Below, in pieces: positions 1,965-15,674 of a stretch of 37,642 nt of DNA; position 1 is the first letter of the stretch; each line of letters opens with the position of its first letter. This stretch comes from Luminiphilus sp. Lineage in GTDB: Bacteria; Pseudomonadota; Gammaproteobacteria; Pseudomonadales; Halieaceae. The notes beneath the pieces were generated by a model. It made no database searches. It saw only the letters and a list, made by a program, of their open reading frames with translations, and was not told the DNA's origin. A program made the translations under genes and the position numbers. Where the stretch lies: positions 1-37,642 of the forward strand of contig JAAXJC010000080.1 in assembly GCA_012270045.1 (NCBI GenBank), given 5' to 3'.

Positions 1965-3179
1965 CTATTGGGCGAGTTCTATTTCCAGCGGTAGCCTGTC
2001 CAGGCCCAGTGTCGTGCCGCCGTGGCCCGCTATATCTTTGCCGGGGCTGAGTGACACCCGGCGGACCCGCCGACAGAACTCCTCCAGCACAACCCGCACC
2101 TCGAGTTTCGCAAGGTGCAGTCCAATGCACTTGTGAGCTCCCGCACCAAAAGCGTGGTGCTGGTTGAGTTCACTGCGGCTGCGGCCAATATCAAACCGGT
2201 CCGGGGCAGAAAATGTTGCCGGGTCCCTGGATGTGATGGCACTGGGAATAACAACGTTGTCCCCCGCGCTGAAGTGAACACCGTCGAGTTCAATATCACG
2301 CTCGCAAATTCGATTGAGACTGATAAAGGCATTCAGCCGCAGCAATTCGTCTATCGATTCGGCTATTGATTCAGGGTTCCCGTGGAACCCCGCATACTGC
2401 TGGGGCTGTCGCGCAAACTGCAGCATGGTCAGTGACAGCATGGACGCAACCGTATCAATGCCTGCCAGAAATAGCAGGTAGGCAATGGCATGAACCTCAT
2501 CGGCGGTGAGTTGCTCCCCTTCCACTTCGGCAGCCAACAACAGGTGCACGATGTCATCACCCGCCCCCTCCTCTCGGTGCCTCGCCACCACCTCGGCCAG
2601 GTGCTCCGAAATCCTCTGGCCATATTCAAGGCGCTGTTCCAGGGTAGGCGCACGATAGAAGCCGTTTTCCCAGGCATAGAACTGGGGCAGCATGGCCACT
2701 TCCAAACCCATCTGCTCAGCAAAAACACGGGTCGGTATGGGCTTGGCTACCTCGGCAAGAAAATCGAGAGATGGCTGGGCAAGGGCCTGATCCAGCACCT
2801 CACAGGCCTGCTGCCGGACCGACGCTTCCATTTTCTGAACCACTGCTGGCTGAAAAACAGGTAACAACAAGCGGCGGTAGCGTCGATGCTCATCGGGACC
2901 GCTTTCCAGGGGGATTAAGCGGGGTCGCTGCTGGTAGTTGGCCGGGACGCCAATGGGAAAAGAGCCGAAATTCCTGGCGTCGCACAGTACCTTGTGAGCC
3001 AGAGCGTGGGAAAAAATGATCCAGTGACCGCCGTTATGGGGCGTGTAGGCGATGGGCCGGGTCTCGGCGGCCAGCCAGGCCAGCATACAGCCCTGGGGGT
3101 CCCTGGCCAGCTCAGGATCCGCCACAATATCGATGTCACACCGCAGTGCCTCGGGAACGTCCTGCCACTGGGTGGCCAT
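1965..3179 (-). CDS. Cytochrome P450, bacterial class I (CYP101-like motifs)
   Basis: A 404-residue soluble P450. The oxygen-binding helix reads AGIDTV (239-244), like the GLDTV of P450cam rather than the commoner AGxDTT. The K-helix ExxR is E278-R281. The heme loop FGAGAHKCIG has its cysteine ligand at C351. The C-helix GPDEHRRYRR is at 94-103. I chose the ATG at 3179 over one at 3206 because GGAG lies eight bases upstream and the longer form would overlap the preceding gene. It would hydroxylate a hydrophobic substrate using electrons from a [2Fe-2S] ferredoxin. The only adrenodoxin-type ferredoxin here is 22 kb away at 25236, and no ferredoxin reductase is visible. It is five bases downstream of the MDR gene, so the two are translationally close. 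Confidence 0.95.
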   Translation of the reverse strand: MATQWQDVPEALRCDIDIVADPELARDPQGCMLAWLAAETRPIAYTPHNGGHWIIFSHALAHKVLCDARNFGSFPIGVPANYQQRPRLIPLESGPDEHRRYRRLLLPVFQPAVVQKMEASVRQQACEVLDQALAQPSLDFLAEVAKPIPTRVFAEQMGLEVAMLPQFYAWENGFYRAPTLEQRLEYGQRISEHLAEVVARHREEGAGDDIVHLLLAAEVEGEQLTADEVHAIAYLLFLAGIDTVASMLSLTMLQFARQPQQYAGFHGNPESIAESIDELLRLNAFISLNRICERDIELDGVHFSAGDNVVIPSAITSRDPATFSAPDRFDIGRSRSELNQHHAFGAGAHKCIGLHLAKLEVRVVLEEFCRRVRRVSLSPGKDIAGHGGTTLGLDRLPLEIELAQ

Positions 3180-3184
3180 GGCAA

Positions 3185-4189
3185 TTACTCCAGCACCACC
3201 AGGCATTTACCCCGGGAAGCCCCATGCATCATGTCGCAGAAGGCCTGGGGCGTTTGTTCTATACCCCGATACTGCTGATCAAAGGTGGTCAGGCTACCGT
3301 CGCGCAATGCCGACTCCAGGGTCGCCATGACCTTCGGGAATTCATCCACGTAATCGGAAAACATGAAGCCTTCCATACGGGCTCGCTTGGTGACCAGTTC
3401 CCAGGTGTGGGAGATGGGTTCTACGTCACTCTCGTACTGGGATATCGCACCACACAATACCAGCCGGGCACCCTCGGCCAGCTGCTGCATGACGGTGTTG
3501 AGCACTCCGCCACCGACATTGTCAAAAAACAGGTCCACGCCAGCCGGCGCCACCTCCGCCAATGCCGACGCCAGATCCGGCTGTGACTCACGGGAAATGG
3601 CAACGTCGTAGCCGACCTCATCGGTCAGCCATTGTGCCTTGGCCGCTGAACTGACCAGGCCTATGGTTTTGCAACCGGCGGCCTTCGCCAACTGGCCAAC
3701 AATGGTACCTACCGCGCCTCCGGCGGCACTGACCACCAGCACGTCACCGGCCTTGGGCTGCCCAATCCGAAACAAGCCCAGCCAGGCGGTCATGCCCGTG
3801 GGACCCAGGGTCGACATGTAATCCTGCAGTGGAATGTCATCCGCACACTGAAGCGGGGCGCAGAGATCGGAACCATCCAGGAGGCTCATTTCCTCCCATG
3901 CGGTTCGGGCGTTCACCAGGGTGCCAACGGGGTAATCCGGGTGCCGGGACTCGACCACCTCGCCAAGGACAATACTCTGTACCGGCTCGTTCAGGGCCAT
4001 TCCGGTCAGGTAATTGTCGCCAGCGCCCGCCGACATCCACTGCCGAAATCCGGCATCCAGGGAAAACACCCGGTTGCGGATCAAAAACCAGCCTTCGGGG
4101 ACCTCCGGACGCGGCACTTCGACAATCTCAAAATCATCGGGGGTGATGGCGCCCTCGGGGTGTCTCGCCAAATTTACCGCTAACGGCAT
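3185..4189 (-). CDS. Zinc-independent MDR oxidoreductase (CurA / prostaglandin-reductase type)
   Basis: This 334-residue protein has an N-terminal GroES-like half and a Rossmann half with the NADP-binding loop SAAGGAVGTIVGQ and the family signature DLFFDNVGG. No catalytic or structural zinc ligands are visible. Relatives reduce the C=C bond of alpha,beta-unsaturated ketones with NADPH. The start at 4189 has GGGAG six bases upstream; a longer reading from 4261 lacks this support. It is the first gene of the run MDR - P450 - VOC. It is one of three members of the family in the window, with 6272-7282 and 32934-33956. Substrate not determined. Confidence 0.9.
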   Translation of the reverse strand: MPLAVNLARHPEGAITPDDFEIVEVPRPEVPEGWFLIRNRVFSLDAGFRQWMSAGAGDNYLTGMALNEPVQSIVLGEVVESRHPDYPVGTLVNARTAWEEMSLLDGSDLCAPLQCADDIPLQDYMSTLGPTGMTAWLGLFRIGQPKAGDVLVVSAAGGAVGTIVGQLAKAAGCKTIGLVSSAAKAQWLTDEVGYDVAISRESQPDLASALAEVAPAGVDLFFDNVGGGVLNTVMQQLAEGARLVLCGAISQYESDVEPISHTWELVTKRARMEGFMFSDYVDEFPKVMATLESALRDGSLTTFDQQYRGIEQTPQAFCDMMHGASRGKCLVVLE

Positions 4190-4257
4190 GCTGGACTCCC
4201 GGTGTTTTACACCCTTCTTATACTGGTTCGAGAATATGGCATAGGGCCATTTCAATA

Positions 4258-4279
4258 ACAAACCGATTTGAATGTTTGT
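4258..4279. promoter_or_regulatory. Inverted repeat ACAAAC-N10-GTTTGT, possible operator
   Basis: Perfect six-base arms at 4258-4263 and 4274-4279 lie in the 192-base gap between the divergent MDR (minus) and GFA (plus) genes. The left part, AACAAACC, resembles the left arm of the four repeated operator-like sites elsewhere in the window, but the right arm is differently spaced. It may bind the same or another regulator. Seen in sequence; function inferred. Confidence 0.35.
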
Positions 4280-4381
4280 ATTGAATCCTGAGTGGCCGGG
4301 GATTACCGTCGAACGACGAGGGCCGGCGAGTTAACCGGTGACGGCGTGCGAATACAGGTTTGAAGTTTTAGGAGGACCACC

Positions 4382-4792
4382 ATGGGCAAGGGCAGCTGCT
4401 TGTGCGGCGACATCAGCTATCGATACGAGGCCAGCCAGTCGGCGACCGCCCTGCACTGCCATTGTCGGGACTGTCAAAAAGTCACCGGCTCCGGCAAAGC
4501 CACCATTGTCATGTTCCCGGAGGACGCGGTGGCCATTGAGGGCACGTTCAAGCAATACAGCTGCCTTGGCAGCGACGGCTCCCATGTCAATCGGGGCTTT
4601 TGCCCACGATGTGGCAGCCAGATGTTTACCCACGTCGATGAGATCCCCGGCATGCTGTTTATCAAGGCGGGCACCATGGAGGACTCCAGCTGGGTACAGG
4701 TAGCCTTGAACTGCTGGGAATCCACGGCATCCGTATGGTCGCCTGCTGACGACAGCGTGCCGGGGGTGGCAAAGAATCCGGCGCCCATGTGA
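4382..4792 (+). CDS. GFA-family (Mss4-like fold) zinc protein
   Basis: A 136-residue protein with the family's cysteine pattern: C6xC8 (CLCG), C26xC28xxC31 (CHCRDC) and C74xxC77 (CPRCG), which bind zinc. The family is named for the glutathione-dependent formaldehyde-activating enzyme, but most small members have no proven reaction. A role in handling formaldehyde or other reactive aldehydes released by demethylation is only a possibility. A near-perfect AGGAGG lies six bases before the ATG. It stands alone on the plus strand, divergent from the MDR-P450 run; the next gene follows after 236 bases in which I see nothing. Confidence 0.9.
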   Translation: MGKGSCLCGDISYRYEASQSATALHCHCRDCQKVTGSGKATIVMFPEDAVAIEGTFKQYSCLGSDGSHVNRGFCPRCGSQMFTHVDEIPGMLFIKAGTMEDSSWVQVALNCWESTASVWSPADDSVPGVAKNPAPM

Positions 4793-5028
4793 GCGTAAGA
4801 AGATAAAACTGCCTTGGGCAAGCAACAACCACCAACGACCATCCACGGCATTTGTGGGTCCGGGATGCTGGCCTGATGACCGAGCCGCCGGCTCATCATG
4901 CCTACGGCGCCATATGTTCCTGTCGCCATTGCCCCATAAGCGTCGGCGGCCCAGAGATGGTGCGTTCAAATTATTGTGCTGTTGGCGGCACGGTTGCATG
5001 ATCAAAAATAGAAAATTCAGGGGAGACC

Positions 5029-5790
5029 ATGGCTATGGCATCAGGACTTGAAGGACAGGTAGCGATCGTTACCGGCGCAGGCGCTGGCATAGGACTGGCC
5101 TGCGCTGATCGACTGGCGCGATCCGGAACCGCAGTTTGCATTGCTGATATTGACGCCGAGGCAGCGACTGCGGCGGCCGGCATGCTGGAAAACGCCGGAC
5201 ACCGTTGTATCAGCATCACAGCCGATATCAGTGACAGCGACCAGGTGGCGGCGCTGTTCCAGCAAACCGCCGAGCGCCTGGGACCGGTCACGATCGCCGT
5301 TAACAATGCCGGCGTGGGTGCACCACTGACCCCCCTGGCCGAATCCGAGGAATCGGACTTCGATCGCGTTATGGCCATTAATCTCAAGGGCGTGTGGCTC
5401 TGTATGCGGGAGGCACTAAGGCACATGCAGCCTCAGGGCAAGGGCTGCATCATCAACATGGCCTCGGCGCTGAGCCTGACCACCTACCCCCATACCGGCC
5501 TCTACACGGCCAGCAAGCACGCCGTCGCGGGCCTGACCAAAAGCACCGCCGTCGAATACGGGGAGATGGGTATTCGAATCAATGCGATTTGCCCCGGGTT
5601 CATCTCGACCCCGCTGTTGCACAGTACCGTCAGCGATGACGTGGCAGAGCTTATGGCCGGCAAACATCCAATGAACCGTCTTGGGCGGCCCGAGGAAGTA
5701 GCGGATGCAGTGGCCTATCTGGCGTCAGATGCCGCCTCTTTTGTTACCGGCACGCTGCTCTCTGTTGACGGCGGGTGGACCGCAAGCTGA
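5029..5790 (+). CDS. Short-chain dehydrogenase/reductase (classical SDR)
   Basis: A 253-residue classical SDR with every hallmark: TGAGAGIG (15-22) for the dinucleotide, NNAG (92-95), and catalytic S146, Y159 and K163 (YTASK). D40 at the end of the second strand favours NAD(H) over NADP(H). The C-terminal VDGGW is typical. It would interconvert an alcohol and a ketone; the substrate is unknown, and hydroxysteroid or 3-hydroxyacyl substrates are both possible for this family. GGGGAG lies just upstream of the ATG. It converges with the Rieske ferredoxin gene. One of five SDRs in the window. Confidence 0.93.
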   Translation: MAMASGLEGQVAIVTGAGAGIGLACADRLARSGTAVCIADIDAEAATAAAGMLENAGHRCISITADISDSDQVAALFQQTAERLGPVTIAVNNAGVGAPLTPLAESEESDFDRVMAINLKGVWLCMREALRHMQPQGKGCIINMASALSLTTYPHTGLYTASKHAVAGLTKSTAVEYGEMGIRINAICPGFISTPLLHSTVSDDVAELMAGKHPMNRLGRPEEVADAVAYLASDAASFVTGTLLSVDGGWTAS

Positions 5791-5824
5791 GCGGCCGGAT
5801 ACCGGTAGCCAAGCCGCTGCCGTT

Positions 5825-6136
5825 TCAATCCACGCTGACGGAAATCATGCCTTCCACCACCTGCACGTCATAGGTGGCCAACGGGACCCGGGTTAACTGA
5901 CCCATAGGTTCTCCAGTGCGCAGATTAAAACGAACCCCGTGCAGGGGGCATGAAATGTGGCCGCGTCGGATGCGTCCTCCGTCCAGTAACTGCTGCTGGT
6001 GCGTACAGCGGTTGGCCACAGCGAAGACGTCTCCACCCGAGTGACACAGCAACACCTCACAGCCTTTGACCTCGACCATTTGACTGCTTTCCGGCGCCAG
6101 GGCCTGCAGTTCAAGTACAGGGATAAATTCGCTCAT
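5825..6136 (-). CDS. Rieske-type [2Fe-2S] ferredoxin
   Basis: A 103-residue stand-alone Rieske domain with cluster ligands C44-x-H46 (CTH) and C63-x2-H66 (CPLHG), the size of the ferredoxin components that feed Rieske non-heme oxygenases. Electrons would go to one or more of the three oxygenase alpha subunits here (7336-8565, 14292, 30634). No oxygenase reductase is visible. The ATG at 6136 has only a weak ribosome site. It is divergent from the MDR at 6272 across a gap that carries one of the shared operator-like repeats. Confidence 0.92.
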   Translation of the reverse strand: MSEFIPVLELQALAPESSQMVEVKGCEVLLCHSGGDVFAVANRCTHQQQLLDGGRIRRGHISCPLHGVRFNLRTGEPMGQLTRVPLATYDVQVVEGMISVSVD

Positions 6137-6197
6137 TCATTCGTGTCGGTTCTGGGTATGGCCACAAACCATAAGCACGGCGGACGCCAAACGCAAC

Positions 6198-6238
6198 AAA
6201 CAAACCAGCTTGCTTCTTTTTACCCGGGAGGCTAGCGT
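6198..6238 (+). promoter_or_regulatory. Shared 18-bp operator-like repeat (site 1) with overlapping promoter
   Basis: AAACAAAC-CA-GCTTGCTT occupies 6198-6215, an imperfect inverted repeat with six of eight arm positions matching. TTGCTT (6210-6215) within it could be the -35 element, followed after 17 bases by a poor -10, TAGCGT (6233-6238). It lies between the divergent Rieske ferredoxin and MDR genes. It is nearly identical to the site at 12533, in front of the TetR gene: CAAACAAACC is shared, then A or T, then GCTTGCTT. Confidence 0.6.
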
Positions 6239-6271
6239 ACCGGCAACATCACTGCCCAAGGGGAAGACATC

Positions 6272-7282
6272 GTGCAAGCCGTCACAAAACAACAATGGAC
6301 CTTGAAGAGCCGGCCCGAGGGCATCCCTGACCGCAGCGAAATCGATATCGAGACCCGCACCATAGAAGACGTGCCACCAGAGCATCTGCTCATTGAGTGC
6401 CTTTATTTCTCACTGGACCCCGCCATTCGCGGCTGGATGTCCGAGACCCCGAGCTACCTCCCGCCCATCCCGATCGGCGATCCGGTGCGCTCGACAGTAG
6501 TGGGACGGGTCCAGCACAGCGAGGCCGACGGCTTCAACGTCGGTGATCTTGTGGTGGGTATGGGTGCCTGGGAAACCCATGGCGTGGTACCGGCCGCTTT
6601 TTTCACCGTCATCCCCCCCGATAGCCCGTTCCCGGCCCACTACTACCTGAGTGTGCTCGGTGCAGTTGGCCTTACCCCCTACTTCGGACTGCTGCGGGCG
6701 GGTAAGGCCACGGCGGGACAAACCCTTTTGATGAGTGCCGCCGCCGGTGCAGTGGGTTCACTGGGCGGACAGATTGGCAAGATCCTGGGTCAACGGGTGG
6801 TTGGCCTAGCGGGTACCGATGAGAAATGTCGCTGGGTGACCGAGGAGTTGGGCTTTGATGACTGCATCAACTACAAGACCTGCGGTGACATGGAAAACGC
6901 CATCCGAACTGCCTGTCCAGAGGGTGTAGACCTGTTTTTCGATAACGTTGGCGGTGAAACACTGGACGCGGCGCTGATGAACCTCAACAAGGACGCCACC
7001 ATTGTGTTTTGCGGCAGCATCAGCAATTACAACGCCACGGAACCGACGCCAGGGCCCTACAACTGGTGGCAGGTACTGGCTCGCAGCGTCACGGTGCAGG
7101 GCTACCTTATCAGCGATTATGTCGCTGAATTCCCCGAAGGCCAGGCACAGATGGCCGAGTGGCTACAGGCCGGGCAACTGAAGTTCAAAGAACACATTGT
7201 CGAGGGTTTCGAGAACTGTCTTGACGCCTACAACCTGCTGTTCGAAGGCAAAAACGAGGGCAAATTGATGGTTAAGGTCTGA
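6272..7282 (+). CDS. Zinc-independent MDR oxidoreductase (CurA / prostaglandin-reductase type)
   Basis: A 336-residue paralogue of the MDR at 3185-4189. It has the glycine-rich loop SAAAGAVGSLGGQ and the family signature DLFFDNVGG, and lacks zinc ligands. It is expected to be an NADPH-dependent enone reductase or a related quinone/ketone reductase. The start is GTG, with AGGGGAAG upstream at suitable spacing; no better ATG exists nearby. The upstream gap carries operator-like site 1, so this gene is a likely member of the TetR regulon. It converges with the interrupted Rieske oxygenase, from which a stem-loop separates it. Confidence 0.9.
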   Translation: MQAVTKQQWTLKSRPEGIPDRSEIDIETRTIEDVPPEHLLIECLYFSLDPAIRGWMSETPSYLPPIPIGDPVRSTVVGRVQHSEADGFNVGDLVVGMGAWETHGVVPAAFFTVIPPDSPFPAHYYLSVLGAVGLTPYFGLLRAGKATAGQTLLMSAAAGAVGSLGGQIGKILGQRVVGLAGTDEKCRWVTEELGFDDCINYKTCGDMENAIRTACPEGVDLFFDNVGGETLDAALMNLNKDATIVFCGSISNYNATEPTPGPYNWWQVLARSVTVQGYLISDYVAEFPEGQAQMAEWLQAGQLKFKEHIVEGFENCLDAYNLLFEGKNEGKLMVKV

Positions 7283-7293
7283 CGCCCTGGCAT

Positions 7294-7313
7294 GGGGGAG
7301 CTTTTGCGCCCCC
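7294..7313. terminator. Stem-loop between convergent genes
   Basis: GGGGGAGC-TTTT-GCGCCCCC: eight stem positions with one A/G mismatch and a four-base loop, located between the stops of the MDR (plus) and the Rieske oxygenase (minus). There is no trailing T-run, so intrinsic termination is uncertain. A bidirectional terminator or mRNA-end stabiliser is likely from the position. Confidence 0.4.
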
Positions 7314-7335
7314 GGCACCGGCATCGGTCGATGGC

Positions 7336-8565
7336 CTAAAGACTGGGCATCTCCCCCTCGGCCCCTTCGGCGTAATACTGTATGCAGCGGTGGGCATACT
7401 GGTTGCCGCTCTCGTTCCTGCCAAAGATAACGTCCGCCAGATGACCTGATTGCAGACCACGCTGGACCTGCAACCCAACCTGGTAATCCTCTTCATCAAC
7501 CACCTGCATCAACCAGTCAGCCAGCTGCTCCAGTGCCAGCACCCCTTCTTAATCTACCGGCTTGGTGTGGTGGACAAACTGCAGCACGGTGGAGTTCTCA
7601 TGGGGCCCGGGACCGGGGATCAACTGGGCGATTTGGGTGATTTCAGGGGCAACAAAAATCGACACATTGGGGAAAAACAGCCTGATGAAGTCGTAGCCGT
7701 TATTCTCGTGCTGCCAGAGCTCGTCGGCTGCCACCTCGCGCAGTTGACCTATGTCCTTGGAAGCGTAGCCAACCAGCATATGCGGGCCGTAAGCCTCATA
7801 CGCCATGACATTGGTATAAGTGCGTGGAGCAATTGTTTCCGGGTGGGCCGCCTGGAAATGGTAGCCCTCAAGGTAACCGTCCAGCGCCACTTTCCAATTG
7901 GCGCCGTGGATGACCCGCTGTCCCACGTAGTGCCAGTCCTCAAAGTGCTTCTCCGCAACGTCGCTCATCATCTCACCCAGAAAGGCCCGGATATCACAAT
8001 CCGACTGGGCGTCCAGGACCGCGAATATCAAGCCGCCCTCCTCGTGGCAGGGAAAGGACACGAGGTCCCGATCACCCCGGCAGTCCTCGCCAAATTTCAC
8101 CACATCGGATACACCCCGAAGCTTGCCATCGGCACCATAGGTCCAGGCATGGTAAGGGCAGCTAAAGGTTTTTTTATTGCCGCAGGGGCGAGACTCCAGG
8201 GTCATACCCCGGTGGGTACAGACATTCATCAGCACCTTGGCCGAACCGTCCGCCTGCCGGCAGATCAGCAGGGGCGTTCCCAGCATATCCAGGGTCTTGA
8301 AATCACCTGACTCGGGTATTTCATGGGACAGGGCCACCAGTATAGGCAGGCTCTTGAAGATGCCATCCATCTCGCGCTGCCACACCTGGGGATCGGTATA
8401 ACTGGCAGCCGGCACCCGCAGGGTATCCGCTGCATAATCGGTGGTGCCGCCCTCGACGTGATCAAGTAACCGGCCCACCATCTGGTTATAAAGCGCGTGC
8501 CTGTCCATTATCGACTCCAGCTGTTGTGCATCCATTGGCTTCGTTTCAGGGCACTCCGTATGCAC
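7336..8565 (-). pseudogene. Rieske non-heme iron oxygenase alpha subunit, interrupted by an in-frame TAA
   Basis: Read through, the frame gives about 408 residues from a GTG at 8565 (an ATG at 8535 is equally possible). The Rieske motif reads CTHRG...CPYHAW, and the mononuclear iron histidines lie in EGYHFQAAH. After residue 338 (TKPVD) there is a TAA at 7549-7551. The same frame then continues for 68 or more codons as a normal oxygenase C-terminus (EEDYQVGLQVQRGL, FGRNESGNQYAHR). In this family the acidic third iron ligand lies in that last segment, so the 338-residue product should be inactive. A GTG seven bases past the stop, preceded by GAAGGG, could restart translation, but I consider a recent nonsense mutation or sequencing error likelier. 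The gene faces operator-like site 2. Confidence 0.85.
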
Positions 8566-8610
8566 TCAACCGGCGCGCCGCAACGTCTTCGAGGCTAGGA
8601 TTCGCCTCAG

Positions 8611-8655
8611 AAAAAGTCAAGCTTGCTTGCTTTTTTACAGGTGCTTCCATAACCT
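8611..8655 (+). promoter_or_regulatory. Shared operator-like repeat (site 2) with overlapping promoter
   Basis: AAAAAGTC-AA-GCTTGCTT occupies 8611-8628. The right arm is identical to sites 1 and 3; the left arm is degenerate (five of eight). The core CAAGCTTG is a perfect palindrome. TTGCTT (8627-8632), 17 bases, then TAACCT (8650-8655) form a plausible promoter reading towards the SDR at 8739. It lies between the divergent Rieske oxygenase and SDR genes. Confidence 0.5.
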
Positions 8656-8738
8656 GCTAGCACGCTGCTGAGGGCATGCTGAGGCAGCGATAATGACGGG
8701 CATTAGCCCGCGGCTGGAGCAGTGCGAGAGGGGGAATT

Positions 8739-9524
8739 ATGGGCGACAGGCTCAATGGAAAAGTAGCGCTGATCACCGGCGGTACCAATGGCATTGGCAA
8801 GGCTACGGTCGAGGGCTTCATGGCTGAGGGCGCGGCGGGTGTCGTCTTTACGGGCAACAACGTCGAGGCGGGCCAGGCGATCGCCGAGGCCACCGGCGCC
8901 GACTTCATCCAGCATGCGGTTCAGGATATTCCCGGCTGGGCGGGCATAGAATCCCACCTCCGCGACAAATACGGTCGACTCGACATCGCATTTGCCAATG
9001 CCGGCACCAATACCGGTGACGGCAATGTTGAAGAGGTGTCCACCGAAGCCTGGCAGAACTTGCTCGATATCAACCTGACCGGGCCCATGCTGACCATTAA
9101 AACGGCCATCAAAATCATGCGGGACAATCCGGGGGACGTTGGCGGTTCCATCGTACTCAACAGCTCGATCAACGGCATCTTGGCCCTGGCTGGGGACGTC
9201 ACCTACTCCACTACCAAGGGAGCCATGCGACTGCTGGCCAAATCAAGCGCCGTACACCTTGCCAAAGAGGGCACGGGCATCCGGGTCAACACCATTCACC
9301 CGGGTGTGATTGAGACACCGCTGATCGAGGGCGCCATCAACGGCGCGCCGGATCCCGACGCCGCGCGATCCATGCTTGAGGGTATTGCGCCCATGGGACG
9401 CCTGGGCCAGATGGAAGAAATAGTATCCCTGCTGGTCTATCTGGGCAGTGACGAATCCCGCTTCATGACCGGCTCTGAACTGGTCATCGATGGCGGCTCA
9501 ACCGCCGGCCTGCCCGGGGTCTAA
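8739..9524 (+). CDS. Short-chain dehydrogenase/reductase (classical SDR)
   Basis: A 261-residue SDR with TGGTNGIG (13-20), an ANAG version of the NNAG motif, a serine in LNSSING and the active-site YSTTK. It ends with a DGGS dimerisation segment typical of the family. Alcohol/ketone oxidoreductase; substrate unknown. GAGAGGGGG precedes the ATG by four bases. It is the only plus-strand gene between operator-like site 2 and the convergent NTF2-like gene, and so a probable single-gene transcript within the same regulon. Confidence 0.92.
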   Translation: MGDRLNGKVALITGGTNGIGKATVEGFMAEGAAGVVFTGNNVEAGQAIAEATGADFIQHAVQDIPGWAGIESHLRDKYGRLDIAFANAGTNTGDGNVEEVSTEAWQNLLDINLTGPMLTIKTAIKIMRDNPGDVGGSIVLNSSINGILALAGDVTYSTTKGAMRLLAKSSAVHLAKEGTGIRVNTIHPGVIETPLIEGAINGAPDPDAARSMLEGIAPMGRLGQMEEIVSLLVYLGSDESRFMTGSELVIDGGSTAGLPGV

Positions 9525-9554
9525 ATCCGGCGCTGGCTGTCGACTGCGCGGTGA

Positions 9555-9956
9555 CTACTCCCCGTGCAGAACCCGAAAACGGCGCAGGGAAAATCGCCAC
9601 TCCCCGTCCACACGCACACACTCGTCTTCATACTCACCCCGGGGCTCGATCTGGGTTCCGTCCTGCATCACGGCAACTTCGCTGGTATAGCTGCGCATGG
9701 TGGCCCTGTCCCCAGTAACGGATATGTAGCCCGGGTGGGCCATCATGTTTACAAAAGGAAACAGTTCCATGGCCTGTAACCAGGCGGCAATGATGTTGTC
9801 CCTGCCGGTGATGCCCTCCATGTCCAAATGGGGCAGTTCCCAAACCGCGTCCTCCGCCCAGGTACTACCCCAAATGTCGGCATCACGCTGATTTACACCA
9901 TCGCAATAGCGCTCGAGCAGGGCACGAATGGCCAGTTGATCCTCAAATGCTGTCAC
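9555..9956 (-). CDS. SnoaL-like / NTF2-fold protein
   Basis: A 133-residue protein with the cone-shaped NTF2-like pattern: an N-terminal helix (LAIRALLERYCDGVNQRD), a WAEDAVWELP segment, a GRDNI helix and a C-terminal strand ending in WRFSLRRFRVLHG. This matches the SnoaL_4 group, often found as hydratase, isomerase or dehydratase components in aromatic and steroid catabolism. No catalytic residue can be assigned with confidence. The start is GTG, four bases after GGAGG. It is the last gene of the run TetR - SDR - SDR - NTF2 on the minus strand. Confidence 0.85.
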   Translation of the reverse strand: MTAFEDQLAIRALLERYCDGVNQRDADIWGSTWAEDAVWELPHLDMEGITGRDNIIAAWLQAMELFPFVNMMAHPGYISVTGDRATMRSYTSEVAVMQDGTQIEPRGEYEDECVRVDGEWRFSLRRFRVLHGE

Positions 9957-9999
9957 CTCACCTCCCCCGGGGCATCGCCCCCTGGCTAAACCGCCGGAT

Positions 10000-10764
10000 T
10001 TACTGGTTGATCATGCCGCCGTCGACCACCAACTGGGTGCCGGTGATGTAGGAAGACAGATCACTGGCCAGGAACAATGCCGCATCCCCGATGGTCTTGG
10101 GAGGGCCCATGTAACCCATGGGAATTGCCGATGTCAGCGCCTCGTATTCATCGGTGTTTTCCGTTGCCGCCTGCTTGTTCATGTTGGTGGCAATCATCCC
10201 GGGGTGAATGGTATTGCAGCGGATGCCCTCGGGGGCAGTCTCTGCCGCCACGGCTTTGGTGAAGCCCAGCACGCCACCCTTACTGGCCGCATAGGCAGTT
10301 ACGCCAATCACACCGACCAACGCCGCTACCGACGACATGTTTATGATCGACCCCTTGGTGCCGGTTTCACGCATCATGGCCACCGCCGACTGGGTACCCA
10401 GGAACACGCTGGTCATGTTAACCACCATTTGGCGGTTGTAATCCTCCAGGGTAATTTCCTCGAGCCGTTTCAAAACAGCGATACCGGCGTTGTTAACCAG
10501 GACATCAATGCGTCCATGGTCATCCCGGATTCTGCCCATGGTCGCCTGCCAGCCCTCGGGGTCGGTGACATCCTGTCGCCAACTGGTGGCGCGCCCTCCG
10601 GCACTGTTGATACTGTCCGCAGTAGCCATGGCACCGTCGGCATCCACATCCGTGGCAATCACTGTGGCACCCTCGGCGCCAAAACAATGGGCGATGGCAT
10701 GACCGAGACCGGGATTGGAAGCGGCCCCCGTTACCAGACAAACTTTATCGTTCAACAATCCCAT
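10000..10764 (-). CDS. Short-chain dehydrogenase/reductase (classical SDR)
   Basis: A 254-residue SDR with TGAASNPGLG, in which the glycine-rich loop is two residues longer than usual. It also has NNAG, a serine in NMSSVAA, and YAASK. Aspartates after the second strand (TDVDADG) favour NAD(H). AGGAGAGG lies six bases upstream of the ATG. It sits between another SDR and the NTF2-like gene in the minus-strand run behind TetR. It could be a 3-hydroxyacyl-CoA or cyclic-alcohol dehydrogenase; this cannot be resolved from sequence. Confidence 0.92.
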   Translation of the reverse strand: MGLLNDKVCLVTGAASNPGLGHAIAHCFGAEGATVIATDVDADGAMATADSINSAGGRATSWRQDVTDPEGWQATMGRIRDDHGRIDVLVNNAGIAVLKRLEEITLEDYNRQMVVNMTSVFLGTQSAVAMMRETGTKGSIINMSSVAALVGVIGVTAYAASKGGVLGFTKAVAAETAPEGIRCNTIHPGMIATNMNKQAATENTDEYEALTSAIPMGYMGPPKTIGDAALFLASDLSSYITGTQLVVDGGMINQ

Positions 10765-10808
10765 ATTTTTCCTCTCCTCATCACAATCACCGCATAAGTC
10801 AGTTCAGA

Positions 10809-11627
10809 TCAGCTGTCGGGACCCGGTATCTCCCCTGCCCTGATCATGGCCTCTTCCAATTCATGGGCCCTGGGGTTCCTGCGCAGGCAGAGACCGCCGT
10901 TTACCTGCAGGTTTTCGCCGGTCATGAAGCAATCATCACTCGCCAGAAACAGGGCGGCGGCGGCAATGTCATCGGAGGTGCCGTAGCGCCCCAATGGGTA
11001 ACACTGACGAAAGGACTCGGCCAGGGCCGCACTCTGCAAGGCCTCCGCGGTCATGGGCGTATCGGTCAGGCCCGGGGATATGGTGTTGGCCCGAATGCCG
11101 CGACAACCGAATTCATTGGCAACCGTTCTGATAACGTGGTCTATCCCAGCCTTGGTACCCATATAGGCGGCATGGTTGTCCAACATGATCTTCGCGGTTG
11201 CCGAGGAAATCTGGATGATGGAACCCCGTTCCTGTCGGGACATTACCTCAACCAATCGCTGCAACCAGATAAAAGGGCCCTTGAACTGAAGGTCAACCAT
11301 TCGATCCAGTTCTTCTGGGCTGGTGTCACAGAAGCTGGTCAGCAATCCCCAGCCCGTGGCGTTAATGGCAACGTCAATCGCACCGTGGCGCTCACAGATC
11401 TCGTCGATCATCTTGGTGATGGAAGATCGATCGCAGAAGTCGCAGGCCACCCAATCACCATCGATGGCCTCGGCGAGATCTGCAAGAACGTCGGTACGCC
11501 GACCAGAGACCACCACCTTGGCGCCCGCATCGGCAAAGCGCCGGGCCATAACCTGGCCCATATTGCCAGGCGAGCCAGCACCCACAATGGACACAACCTT
11601 ACCGGCGCCCGCAAACCCTCCGAACAT
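10809..11627 (-). CDS. SDR-family oxidoreductase with altered motifs
   Basis: A 272-residue SDR. The nucleotide loop reads GAGSPGNMG, and an arginine pair in SGRR suggests NADP(H). The structural NNAG motif is replaced by INATG. The catalytic serine (QISSATAK) and YMGTK are present, so it is probably an active enzyme of a divergent subgroup. A roughly 25-residue tail after VNGGL is longer than usual. GGAG lies five bases before the ATG. A 99-base gap separates it from the upstream TetR gene and 44 bases from the next SDR, suggesting co-transcription. Confidence 0.88.
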   Translation of the reverse strand: MFGGFAGAGKVVSIVGAGSPGNMGQVMARRFADAGAKVVVSGRRTDVLADLAEAIDGDWVACDFCDRSSITKMIDEICERHGAIDVAINATGWGLLTSFCDTSPEELDRMVDLQFKGPFIWLQRLVEVMSRQERGSIIQISSATAKIMLDNHAAYMGTKAGIDHVIRTVANEFGCRGIRANTISPGLTDTPMTAEALQSAALAESFRQCYPLGRYGTSDDIAAAALFLASDDCFMTGENLQVNGGLCLRRNPRAHELEEAMIRAGEIPGPDS

Positions 11628-11726
11628 AGCTACTCCAACCCACTGTTATTTTTTTCCGAGGCCGCTAAAAACATTACAGCATGTTTTTTTAGCCAACAAG
11701 CTTTGCCTGGCCGTGCAGTCCGGGGG

Positions 11727-12443
11727 CTAGGACTCCAACTCGTAGATTTCCACCAACTGGTCTGTCACCAGGTCAATGATTCGTTCTGCTCGCTTCTTGC
11801 TGTTACTCGACCGGTAGGTGGTCGCCATACCGCGCATCACAAAATGGACCAGGTCATGGGCCGCCTGAAAAGACTTGATGGAACGCCATTGGGGGAACAC
11901 GGTTTTGGCGGTGCTCAGGAACTGCCTCTCAAATTCCTTTTCGAATTCGCCGATAACCTCACCCAGTTCTTCATCCGTTCGCGCTGCGGACTGCAGTTCC
12001 TGATAGGCAACGAAGGTGGGCAGGTTGTGATACGCCCAGGCCGCTTTCACAGACCGGCGTATGTCCTCCCGGGTAATGTTCTCGGATATGTCGTTCGCCG
12101 TCATAAGCTCGCGATATTCGTCCAGCCGCCGCTCGTGCAGGTAGGCCACCACCGCCTTCATGACCTCGGCCCGGGCCGAGAAGTGGTGCATCATGGCACC
12201 ACGGGACACACCAGCTTCCGCTGCAATCATGGCGGTGGTTGTTTTGGTGTAGCCCTCCCTGACAAAACAGCGCACCGCACCCTCCAGGATGGCTTTGCGT
12301 GTCAGGGCGCTCTTCTCTGCCTGCCAGCCATCCCCGGTTCTAACACCATTGCCAACGGCCTTTGCTTTGATGGTCTTTGCTTTCGCTTTTTTATCTACGC
12401 GCCGAGCAGTTGTGCCGCGCTGACTTTGCGAGGTTTCGGACAT
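11727..12443 (-). CDS. TetR-family transcriptional regulator
   Basis: A 238-residue TetR protein. The DNA-binding helices lie at about 48-90: TRKAILEGAVRCFVREGYTK, then AMIAAEAGVSRGAMMHHF as helix-turn-helix. The rest is an all-helical ligand-binding and dimerisation domain. Unusually, a basic tail of about 45 residues (DKKAKAKTIKAKAVGNG) precedes the domain. The ribosome site of the ATG at 12443 is weak, so a later start is possible, but no strong alternative is visible. It is divergent from the OB-fold/thiolase gene pair; the shared operator-like repeat lies about 90 bases upstream of it. It most likely represses this cluster and itself, and is released by a pathway intermediate such as a CoA ester (inference). 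Confidence 0.93.
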   Translation of the reverse strand: MSETSQSQRGTTARRVDKKAKAKTIKAKAVGNGVRTGDGWQAEKSALTRKAILEGAVRCFVREGYTKTTTAMIAAEAGVSRGAMMHHFSARAEVMKAVVAYLHERRLDEYRELMTANDISENITREDIRRSVKAAWAYHNLPTFVAYQELQSAARTDEELGEVIGEFEKEFERQFLSTAKTVFPQWRSIKSFQAAHDLVHFVMRGMATTYRSSNSKKRAERIIDLVTDQLVEIYELES

Positions 12444-12532
12444 CGATCAGGGGGTCTCAGCTTGTATAGGGTGTCTTGTAGCACCAGAATCCTACAAACA
12501 ACATTCAAACGCAATCGAAGTCTACGGGTTTC

Positions 12533-12573
12533 AAACAAACCTGCTTGCTTTTTTTTGGGGGCATTCCTAGTAT
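12533..12573 (+). promoter_or_regulatory. Shared operator-like repeat (site 3) with overlapping promoter
   Basis: AAACAAAC-CT-GCTTGCTT occupies 12533-12550, matching site 1 except for one spacer base. TTGCTT (12545-12550), 17 bases and TAGTAT (12568-12573) form a good promoter reading towards the OB-fold gene at 12680. The position between the TetR gene and its divergent neighbour is the classic one for a TetR operator and supports autoregulation. Confidence 0.65.
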
Positions 12574-12679
12574 CATTTTGAGCGGTGGGGCTGTGGGCAG
12601 ATCTACCCTGCGCGGCAGTCAGCCCCGGCAAAGCACAAAGCGCCAAACAAGACGGGGACCACCACGCGGAGAACAATAA

Positions 12680-13111
12680 ATGGCGGACCAGTTACCCCTT
12701 CATCCCGGCCTGTTCAGTTGGCCGAGCAAGCGTCCGGAGCTGCTGGGCAGCCGCTGCCTGGAATGTGGCGAGCATGCTTTTCCCAGCCAGGACAGCTGCC
12801 GTGCCTGCGGCAGCGAGCAGACAGAAATAGTGGGACTGGGGCACTCTGGAACCCTGTGGACGTGGACTGTCCAGAGTTTTATGCCCAAATCCCCCTACCT
12901 GACCGACGAAACCCCGGAAACCTTCCGTCCCTACGGTGTCGGCTACGTGGAACTACCCTGCGGCTTGAAGGTTGAGAGTCGACTGCGGGAAAACAGCCCT
13001 GATAGTCTGGCCATTGGACTGGACATGGAACTGGAAATTATTCCAGTGCGCTGCAATGACGAGGGGACCCAATTGATGACATTTCAATTCTGCGCTGCGG
13101 AGGTCTCATGA
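12680..13111 (+). CDS. Zn-ribbon/OB-fold protein (DUF35), partner of the thiolase-like protein
   Basis: A 143-residue protein. An N-terminal rubredoxin-like zinc ribbon has cysteine pairs in CLECG and CRACG, about 14 residues apart, and is followed by an OB-fold beta domain (WTWTVQSF, YGVGYVEL, LEIIPV). DUF35 proteins pair with thiolase-superfamily proteins; ChsH2-DUF35 with the steroid side-chain aldolase Ltp2 is the best-known case. The stop and the next gene's start overlap as ATGA (13108-13111), as expected for a stoichiometric complex. It is the first gene downstream of operator-like site 3. Confidence 0.9.
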   Translation: MADQLPLHPGLFSWPSKRPELLGSRCLECGEHAFPSQDSCRACGSEQTEIVGLGHSGTLWTWTVQSFMPKSPYLTDETPETFRPYGVGYVELPCGLKVESRLRENSPDSLAIGLDMELEIIPVRCNDEGTQLMTFQFCAAEVS

Positions 13112-14253
13112 CGGAAGTTGCCATTGTTGGATTGGGCATTCACCCCTTCGGCCGCAGCCCGGAGCTGACCGGACTGGAACAGGGAGCTGTCGCCGCAAGA
13201 GCTGCATTGGCGGATGCCGGCACGGATTTTAAAGCCATGCAGTTTGCCTTTGGCGGCAGCCAGGACGGTGGCAATGCCGACTCCCTGGTGAACCTGTTGG
13301 GATTGACCGGCCTACAGTTCACCAATATCTGGAACGGTTGTGCCACCGGAGGTAGCTCCCTTAATGCCGCCTACTCCGCAATCCGGTCCGGCCAATACGA
13401 CATGGGTCTTGTGGTGGGTTTTGATAAGCACGCCCGGGGCGCATTCAACCCCCAACCCCGGGACTGGGGCCTGGACGACTGGTATGGCGAGACCGGCCTG
13501 ATGCTGACGACCCAGTATTTCGCCATGAAAATACAGCGCTACATGCACGATCATGGCATCTCCCGTGACACCCTGGTCCGGGTAGCGGAGAAAGCCTTCC
13601 GAAATGGCTCGATCACTCCCACTGCCTGGCGCCAGACCGCACTCTCCTGGGAAGAGATAGAACATGCCCCGATGGTTAGTGAGCCCTTAAACAAGTACAT
13701 GTTTTGCTCCCCTGCCGAGGGCGGCTGCGCCCTGGTGTTATGCCGGGCAGATATGGCTCAGCAATTCACCAGCAGGCCAGTGCTACTGAAAAGTGCGGTC
13801 GTCCGCTCCCGGCACTACGGCAGCTTTGAAGTCTTCAGCCCATCCCAGGCGCCCACGGTAGCGCCCTCCCCCACCGTCACCGCATCCCAGGCCGCGTTCG
13901 AATTTGCTGGCATTGGCCCGGAGGATGTCGATGTCGCCCAGTTGCAGGACACGGAGGTTGGCGCTGAAATAATGCACATGGCCGAAAACGGTTTCTGTGC
14001 CCACGGTGACCAGGAACACTGGCTGCGTGAGGGCGTCACGGAAATCAATGGTAGGTTGCCGGTGAATACCGATGGCGGCTGTCTTGCCAATGGTGAGCCC
14101 GTCGGAGCCTCAGGACTCCGTCAGGTTTATGAAATATGCCACCAACTACGGGGCTCAGCGGGCGCCCGTCAGGTACCCAATAATCCGAAGGTGGGTTATA
14201 CCCACGTCTACGGCGCTCCAGGCATCAGTGGCGTCAACATTCTGGCAGTGTAA
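13108..14253 (+). CDS. Thiolase-superfamily protein, Ltp2/SCP2-like (possible acyl-CoA retro-aldolase)
   Basis: A 381-residue thiolase fold protein. The nucleophile-loop cysteine is kept (NGCATGG, C78). The usual GHP histidine is replaced by glutamate in NGEPVGASG (E330), and the second catalytic cysteine of CxGxG by tyrosine in VYGAPG (Y368). A complete Claisen thiolase triad is therefore absent. Ltp2-type aldolases, which cut two- or three-carbon side-chain pieces from steroid CoA thioesters, also repurpose the thiolase site with tyrosines and need a DUF35 partner, here encoded immediately upstream. Retro-aldol cleavage of a hydroxyacyl-CoA is my preferred reading (inference). A conventional thiolase role is less likely. 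Confidence 0.88.
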   Translation: MTEVAIVGLGIHPFGRSPELTGLEQGAVAARAALADAGTDFKAMQFAFGGSQDGGNADSLVNLLGLTGLQFTNIWNGCATGGSSLNAAYSAIRSGQYDMGLVVGFDKHARGAFNPQPRDWGLDDWYGETGLMLTTQYFAMKIQRYMHDHGISRDTLVRVAEKAFRNGSITPTAWRQTALSWEEIEHAPMVSEPLNKYMFCSPAEGGCALVLCRADMAQQFTSRPVLLKSAVVRSRHYGSFEVFSPSQAPTVAPSPTVTASQAAFEFAGIGPEDVDVAQLQDTEVGAEIMHMAENGFCAHGDQEHWLREGVTEINGRLPVNTDGGCLANGEPVGASGLRQVYEICHQLRGSAGARQVPNNPKVGYTHVYGAPGISGVNILAV

Positions 14254-14291
14254 AGACAAACCCAGCAGCGTTAGCGCAGGCGGAGATAGCG

Positions 14292-15674
14292 ATGAACAAG
14301 GCGGAAAAAAAACAGGGTGACGGTGGCCGCTTCGAGGGCACCACGTTTCAGGACCTCCTGGACCTGGAAAACGTCGAAGTACCCGAGTACCTGAGAATAA
14401 AGAGCAATCCGCACCTCGGGGATGAGGACCTGTCTGTCGACCGCTACATCAGCCAGGAATTCTTTGACCGGGAGCGAGACCATATGTGGTCCCGGGTGTG
14501 GCAAATGGTATGCCGGGAGGAAGATATTGCCGAGCCGGGGGACCACCACGTCTACAACATCATCGACAGCAGTGTCATTGTGACCCGCACCCCCTCGGGC
14601 AGCATCAAAGGCTATATCAACAGCTGCCTGCACCGCGGACGATGCCTGCGGGACGAGTCAGGCACCGTGAATGAATTCCGCTGCCCCTTCCACGGCGCCA
14701 CCTGGAATCTGGACGGCGAATTCCAGGGCATCCCCTGCCAGTGGGATTTTGAGCATCTGGCGGATCGGGACATGTCCCTGCCGGAAGTGAAGACCGGCAC
14801 CTGGGGCGGTTTTGTCTTCATCAATTTCGATCACGACTGCGAGCCCCTGGAAAGCTACATGGACGTTATGCCCGATCACTTCTCGCGCTTTCCGCTGCAG
14901 GATTATTTCAAAGGTGTGCACGTACAGCGGGTCATGAACTGCAACTGGAAGGTGGGTGCCGAGGCCTTTATGGAATCCTGGCACACGGTTGAGACCCACA
15001 AACAGATTCTCACTTTTACCGGGGATGAAAATTCCCAGTACGACACCTTTGGCGACAACGTCAGCCGCTCGGTGACCCCCATGGCAGTGCACAGCCCGCA
15101 TCTGGAGAATATTTCCGACGAGGCCATCATCAGGGACATCCTGAAGTTGTCAGGGCGCATGGCCCTGGACAGTGATGAAGGTGTGGAAATGCCCGATGGC
15201 ATCTCAGCACGGCGCTACGTGGCGGACATGAACCGGGAACTGTTTGAGGAAGCCTCGGGACAGGACCTCTCTGACGCCACCATGGCTGAACTGGAGGATG
15301 CGATCCTGTACAGCCTGTTCCCCAATTTCCAGGTCTGGATAGGCTATAACGGCAACATCGTCTATCGCTTCCTGCCCAACGGTAACGACCCCCACAGCTG
15401 TATCTTCGACGTCATGATCCTGCTCCGGTACCCCGAGGGTTCCCAGCGCCCCGATCCTGCCGCCTGTATCACACTGCCTGTAGAGGAACCCTTTTCCTCG
15501 GTTCCGGAACTGGGGGCCCTGGGCCCGGTCTTTGACCAGGACGATGCCAATTTGCCGGCGGTGCAACGCGGCATGCGCACCTCGCGCAAGGGCGCCGTTA
15601 GTCTGGCCAGCTATCAGGAAAGCCGTATACGGCATTTACACGCCACCCTGGATAAATACGTCGACAGCCCCTGA
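14292..15674 (+). CDS. Rieske non-heme iron oxygenase, alpha subunit
   Basis: A complete 460-residue oxygenase. Rieske ligands are C112, H114 (CLHRG), C131 and H134 (CPFHG). The mononuclear iron histidines are H231 and H236 (ESWHTVETH), and an acidic ligand probably lies in FDQDDANL near residue 418. It would hydroxylate, dihydroxylate or demethylate an aromatic or alicyclic substrate using electrons from the Rieske ferredoxin at 5825. No beta subunit is adjacent, suggesting an alpha-only enzyme. GGAG lies six bases before the ATG. It follows the thiolase gene by 38 bases and precedes the ThuA-like gene by 11, in one transcription unit. Confidence 0.94.
   Translation: MNKAEKKQGDGGRFEGTTFQDLLDLENVEVPEYLRIKSNPHLGDEDLSVDRYISQEFFDRERDHMWSRVWQMVCREEDIAEPGDHHVYNIIDSSVIVTRTPSGSIKGYINSCLHRGRCLRDESGTVNEFRCPFHGATWNLDGEFQGIPCQWDFEHLADRDMSLPEVKTGTWGGFVFINFDHDCEPLESYMDVMPDHFSRFPLQDYFKGVHVQRVMNCNWKVGAEAFMESWHTVETHKQILTFTGDENSQYDTFGDNVSRSVTPMAVHSPHLENISDEAIIRDILKLSGRMALDSDEGVEMPDGISARRYVADMNRELFEEASGQDLSDATMAELEDAILYSLFPNFQVWIGYNGNIVYRFLPNGNDPHSCIFDVMILLRYPEGSQRPDPAACITLPVEEPFSSVPELGALGPVFDQDDANLPAVQRGMRTSRKGAVSLASYQESRIRHLHATLDKYVDSP

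Follow-up and report, generated by a model that had tools for sequence, protein, structure and literature searches.

A single in-frame TAA in a Luminiphilus Rieske oxygenase gene: candidate consensus error or very recent mutation

INTRODUCTION

The solved structure that best matches the oxygenase described here by profile is the carnitine monooxygenase CntA (6y8j and 6y9d; PMC7948474). Its mononuclear iron ligands include His208 and His213 in the published numbering, and a numbering offset makes chain residue 343 of the structure equal to Asp323 (PMC7948474). CntA also carries a pair of cysteines, Cys206 and Cys209, beside the iron. In-frame stop codons, for their part, are widespread and short-lived in bacteria, as described by Belinky et al. 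(2021; PMC7918605), who guarded against artefacts by accepting a stop only if at least two genomes had it. A literature search on Luminiphilus together with Rieske proteins returned nothing.

Here, we examine a Rieske oxygenase alpha-subunit gene of Luminiphilus sp. that is interrupted by one TAA. Like CntA, the encoded protein has the CxH and CxxH Rieske motifs, a His-His ligand pair, and an aligned aspartate ligand in its tail; unlike in CntA, an in-frame TAA precedes that aspartate. The interruption also resembles the stops of Belinky et al. (2021; PMC7918605) in being single, in frame, and flanked on both sides by sequence under constraint. In contrast to their cases, it is found in a single draft assembly and fails the sharing test. 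As a stop codon it is ordinary, with nothing unusual about it.

RESULTS

The window, by which we mean the whole stretch of DNA analyzed (37,642 nucleotides), contains the oxygenase frame and its parts at the following positions.

7336-8565, minus strand: Rieske oxygenase alpha-subunit frame, 409 codons with one internal stop
8101-8340, minus strand: Rieske [2Fe-2S] domain, with CxH (C116, H118) and CxxH (C136, H139) intact
7843-7860, minus strand: predicted mononuclear-iron histidine ligands H236 (7858-7860) and H241 (7843-7845), motif DGYLEGYHFQAAH
7549-7551, minus strand: in-frame TAA, codon 339; Glu, Asp or Ala in 29 of the 29 orthologues covering the site
7540-7542, minus strand: GTG, proposed restart, without conservation in orthologues
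7339-7548, minus strand: conserved 70-codon tail past the TAA, with a PF00848 match
7486-7488, minus strand: D360, the expected acidic iron ligand, 3' of the TAA and aligned with CntA Asp323
7336-7338, minus strand: natural stop TAG of the frame, from the translation

As expected of an alpha subunit, the frame matched the Rieske family PF00355 in Pfam with 66 bits (cut-off 20). Ahead of the TAA, PF00355 and PF00848 (Ring_hydroxyl_A, profile positions 1-141) account for the Rieske domain and for the N-terminal two thirds of the catalytic domain, and the 70-residue tail on its own matches PF00848 at profile positions 151-205, above the Pfam cut-off. The reading frame and the C-terminus agree with those of the orthologues, and the TAA is the only lesion. 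A sequence-only reading had proposed that the frame, the family motifs and the C-terminus continue past the stop; the Pfam matches on both sides and the agreement with orthologues bear this out. A frameshift was rejected because the frame runs on intact, and a contig-edge effect because the contig is 48 kb long and its nearer end is 7.5 kb away from the site. Translation probably starts at codon 20, the ATG at 8506-8508, which is also where the alignments of most orthologues begin.

To map the iron ligands, we aligned a profile of the intact orthologues with the solved structures. H236 and H241 correspond to CntA His208 and His213. D360 falls on CntA chain residue 343 in a tail match that is weak (6.6 bits), with the motif EDxxxxxxVQRGL common to both proteins. 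Because the tail alignment places D360 on Asp323, the TAA does part the two histidines from the expected acidic ligand, the division that had been anticipated from the letters of the gene. As written, the frame does not place a 2-His-1-carboxylate iron site on one chain, with both histidines before the TAA and D360 after it; the predicted site would be whole only if the TAA is unreal or read through. The segment aligned with the CntA cysteine pair reads DGYLEGYHF and lacks the pair, and the substrate is therefore probably not carnitine.

The part of the window from 1965 to 15674 is a dense, catabolic-looking cluster whose order is kept in relatives. Its members include a P450, two medium-chain reductases, four SDR genes, and ChsH2-like and thiolase-like genes, together with the two Rieske entries listed here alongside an open frame from the same region.

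5825-6136: Rieske ferredoxin-like gene, in the cluster
10863-12581, plus strand: 572-codon open frame with no family match, opposite SDR genes (10809-11627, minus strand)
14292-15674: second Rieske alpha subunit, in the cluster

The 572-codon frame has probably stayed open by chance, the DNA here being GC-rich. Across the genome, we found 20 Rieske-domain matches. A close intact paralogue that could serve as a backup was sought in the same genome and rejected, the next best alpha subunit being only 31% identical to the oxygenase.

The 29 distinct orthologues that cover the stop site are 51-87% identical to the oxygenase and belong, apart from one Sphingobium, to the genus and family of this genome (named records Luminiphilus and Halieaceae). 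None of the 29 has a TAA at codon 339, so the stop is not conserved as recoding would predict, and none ends at this site. The same C-terminus was found in 15 of the 17 orthologues that could be read to their end; the remaining two are cut by their own contigs. Intact orthologues in Luminiphilus and other Halieaceae (for example, in genomes G009, G016, G032, and G007) share up to 87% identity, the same synteny and the same C-terminus, and differ from the oxygenase in having a sense codon at the site. Two genomes, G009 and G029, were considered as further carriers of the stop and set aside: the internal TAA is elsewhere, and both have GAG at this codon. The site itself falls in a linker of variable sequence that precedes the last helix region. 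The forecast that orthologues would have a sense codon was correct, and the refuting case of orthologues that naturally end here was not seen; of the codons forecast (CAA, GAA, or AAA), GAA alone fits the residues seen.

We then compared constraint on the two sides of the TAA. Against five relatives, pN/pS was 0.09-0.11 in the 70 codons after the TAA versus 0.10-0.12 before it. Differences from the closest relative in those 70 codons numbered 3, 4, and 28 at codon positions 1, 2, and 3, respectively. Private replacements numbered 17 in this lineage versus 18 in the closest relative. The relaxed constraint or further lesions of an established pseudogene were thus not seen in the frame (pN/pS about 0.1 on either side, one lesion). 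Comparison with four relatives showed the conserved neighboring genes (about 1.4 to 16 kb) to be intact; other stops that appeared in this comparison were antisense frames or alignment ends. Because the TAA is private to this genome, the tail is still constrained and the neighbors are intact, the stop appears to be either very young or not real. Replacements around the TAA are mildly in excess (7/24 vs 45/369, P = 0.03) in a post hoc comparison over a linker that is variable in the family.

About 1.0 Mb of the same assembly was sampled for similar interruptions. This yielded at least five further single in-frame stops in conserved genes and a likely sixth near a contig end.

L187:13058, minus strand: glutamine synthetase family gene, TAA; Pfam domain spans the stop
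L185:633, plus strand: MFS transporter gene, TGA; Pfam domain spans the stop
L194:9091, minus strand: histidine kinase gene, TGA; Pfam domain spans the stop
L257:3782, plus strand: amidohydrolase gene, TGA; Pfam domain spans the stop
L279:14177, minus strand: NUDIX-like gene (named by our reading, no Pfam match), TGA after a T13 run
L273:63, plus strand: enoyl-CoA hydratase-like gene, likely sixth stop, 63 bases from the contig end

Aligned relatives have sense codons at these other stop sites. The MFS stop belongs to a tight group of radical changes, five within 16 codons counting the stop, flanked by long stretches identical to a relative. In the histidine kinase, a Gly-Gly pair kept in five of five relatives reads WV. 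The same scans found no such stops in 0.74 Mb of two relatives, G016 and G009. The excess of stops over control genomes is borderline (P about 0.06) for a list curated by eye, and the homology comparison of the assembly gave only one frameshift-like break. The other isolated stops, the odd local changes and the lack of such stops in the relatives' 0.74 Mb suggest uneven sequence quality in this draft. A miscall bias of the G-T or A-C type was considered as the cause; some lesions fit it (kinase and MFS), the oxygenase spectrum is mixed, and we do not claim it.

Decoding of TAA was examined in the same genome. TAA terminates 31 of the 168 coding-like segments sampled, and reassignment of the stop was rejected because TAA is an ordinary terminator here. 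No tRNA with a UUA anticodon was present among those found in the draft, whose tRNA set is incomplete. Selenocysteine tRNA reads UGA. A gene for this tRNA lies at L183:1684-1777 on the minus strand (G000:C102; Rfam RF01852, 69 bits; ARAGORN anticodon TCA), and because it is present, the genome probably makes selenoproteins.

DISCUSSION

We rank a consensus error first, with a recent private nonsense allele close behind and functional readthrough unlikely. The error, to which we give about an even chance, would be a base-level error in the consensus of this 225-contig draft assembly, such that the TAA would not exist in the living genome. A sense codon, the nearest being the Glu codon GAA, would have been written as TAA, and the real gene would, as in all relatives, be intact and encode an ordinary Rieske oxygenase alpha subunit of about 390 residues. 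The TAA is private and bears no trace of decay; that it is an error we infer from its absence in 29 orthologues, the unrelaxed selection on either side, the intact neighbors, and the presence of at least five other single stops in this assembly compared with none in the scans of G016 and G009. Weighing against an error, the single frameshift-like break indicates that the assembly is not grossly bad, the excess of stops is borderline in an eye-curated list, and the excess of replacements is post hoc in a variable linker.

The alternative, whose chance we put somewhat below even, is that the gene has been inactivated in this population, by a real nonsense mutation of recent date (from GAA, a single G to T change) or by a segregating allele, making it a newborn pseudogene. 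Ending after codon 338, the product would then have neither the last helix nor the acidic iron ligand and would be dead. Glu stands at this site in many orthologues, and its codon GAA is a single step from TAA; with so many Rieske-domain matches in the genome, the loss of one could also be tolerated. However, the gene shows no trace of decay, has no close backup, and lies in an assembly with error-like anomalies elsewhere.

An improbable third explanation is that the TAA is real and partly read through, so that some full-length enzyme is made, at a lower dose. The conserved tail would fit, a general suppressor could explain why several genes here have isolated stops, and Belinky et al. (PMC7918605) argued that tolerated in-frame stops are common. 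Against this, the tRNAs found, an incomplete set, include none to read UAA, the stops at the other sites include both TAA and TGA, TAA routinely ends genes in this genome, and the oxygenase TAA is shared with no relative. A broader version, in which a tolerated TAA is read through, perhaps together with similar leakage at the stops of the other interrupted genes, to give reduced full-length enzymes, seems slightly more improbable still. Of the three origins offered by the sequence-only reading, a recent lesion and an error gain support from the private stop, the constrained tail and the other stops in the draft, and readthrough gains none. Least probable is its suggestion of a restart at the GTG, with two fragments assembling into a split enzyme: the GTG does lie six bases past the TAA, but close relatives have ATT, ATC, GTT, TCT, or GCG at that position, no relative is split at this point, and no Shine-Dalgarno sequence at proper spacing was seen by eye.

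Given the isolated stops and local base anomalies in conserved genes of this draft, the reads should be consulted before any of its gene breaks is taken for biology. If the TAA is real, this population would simply have lost one of its Rieske oxygenases.
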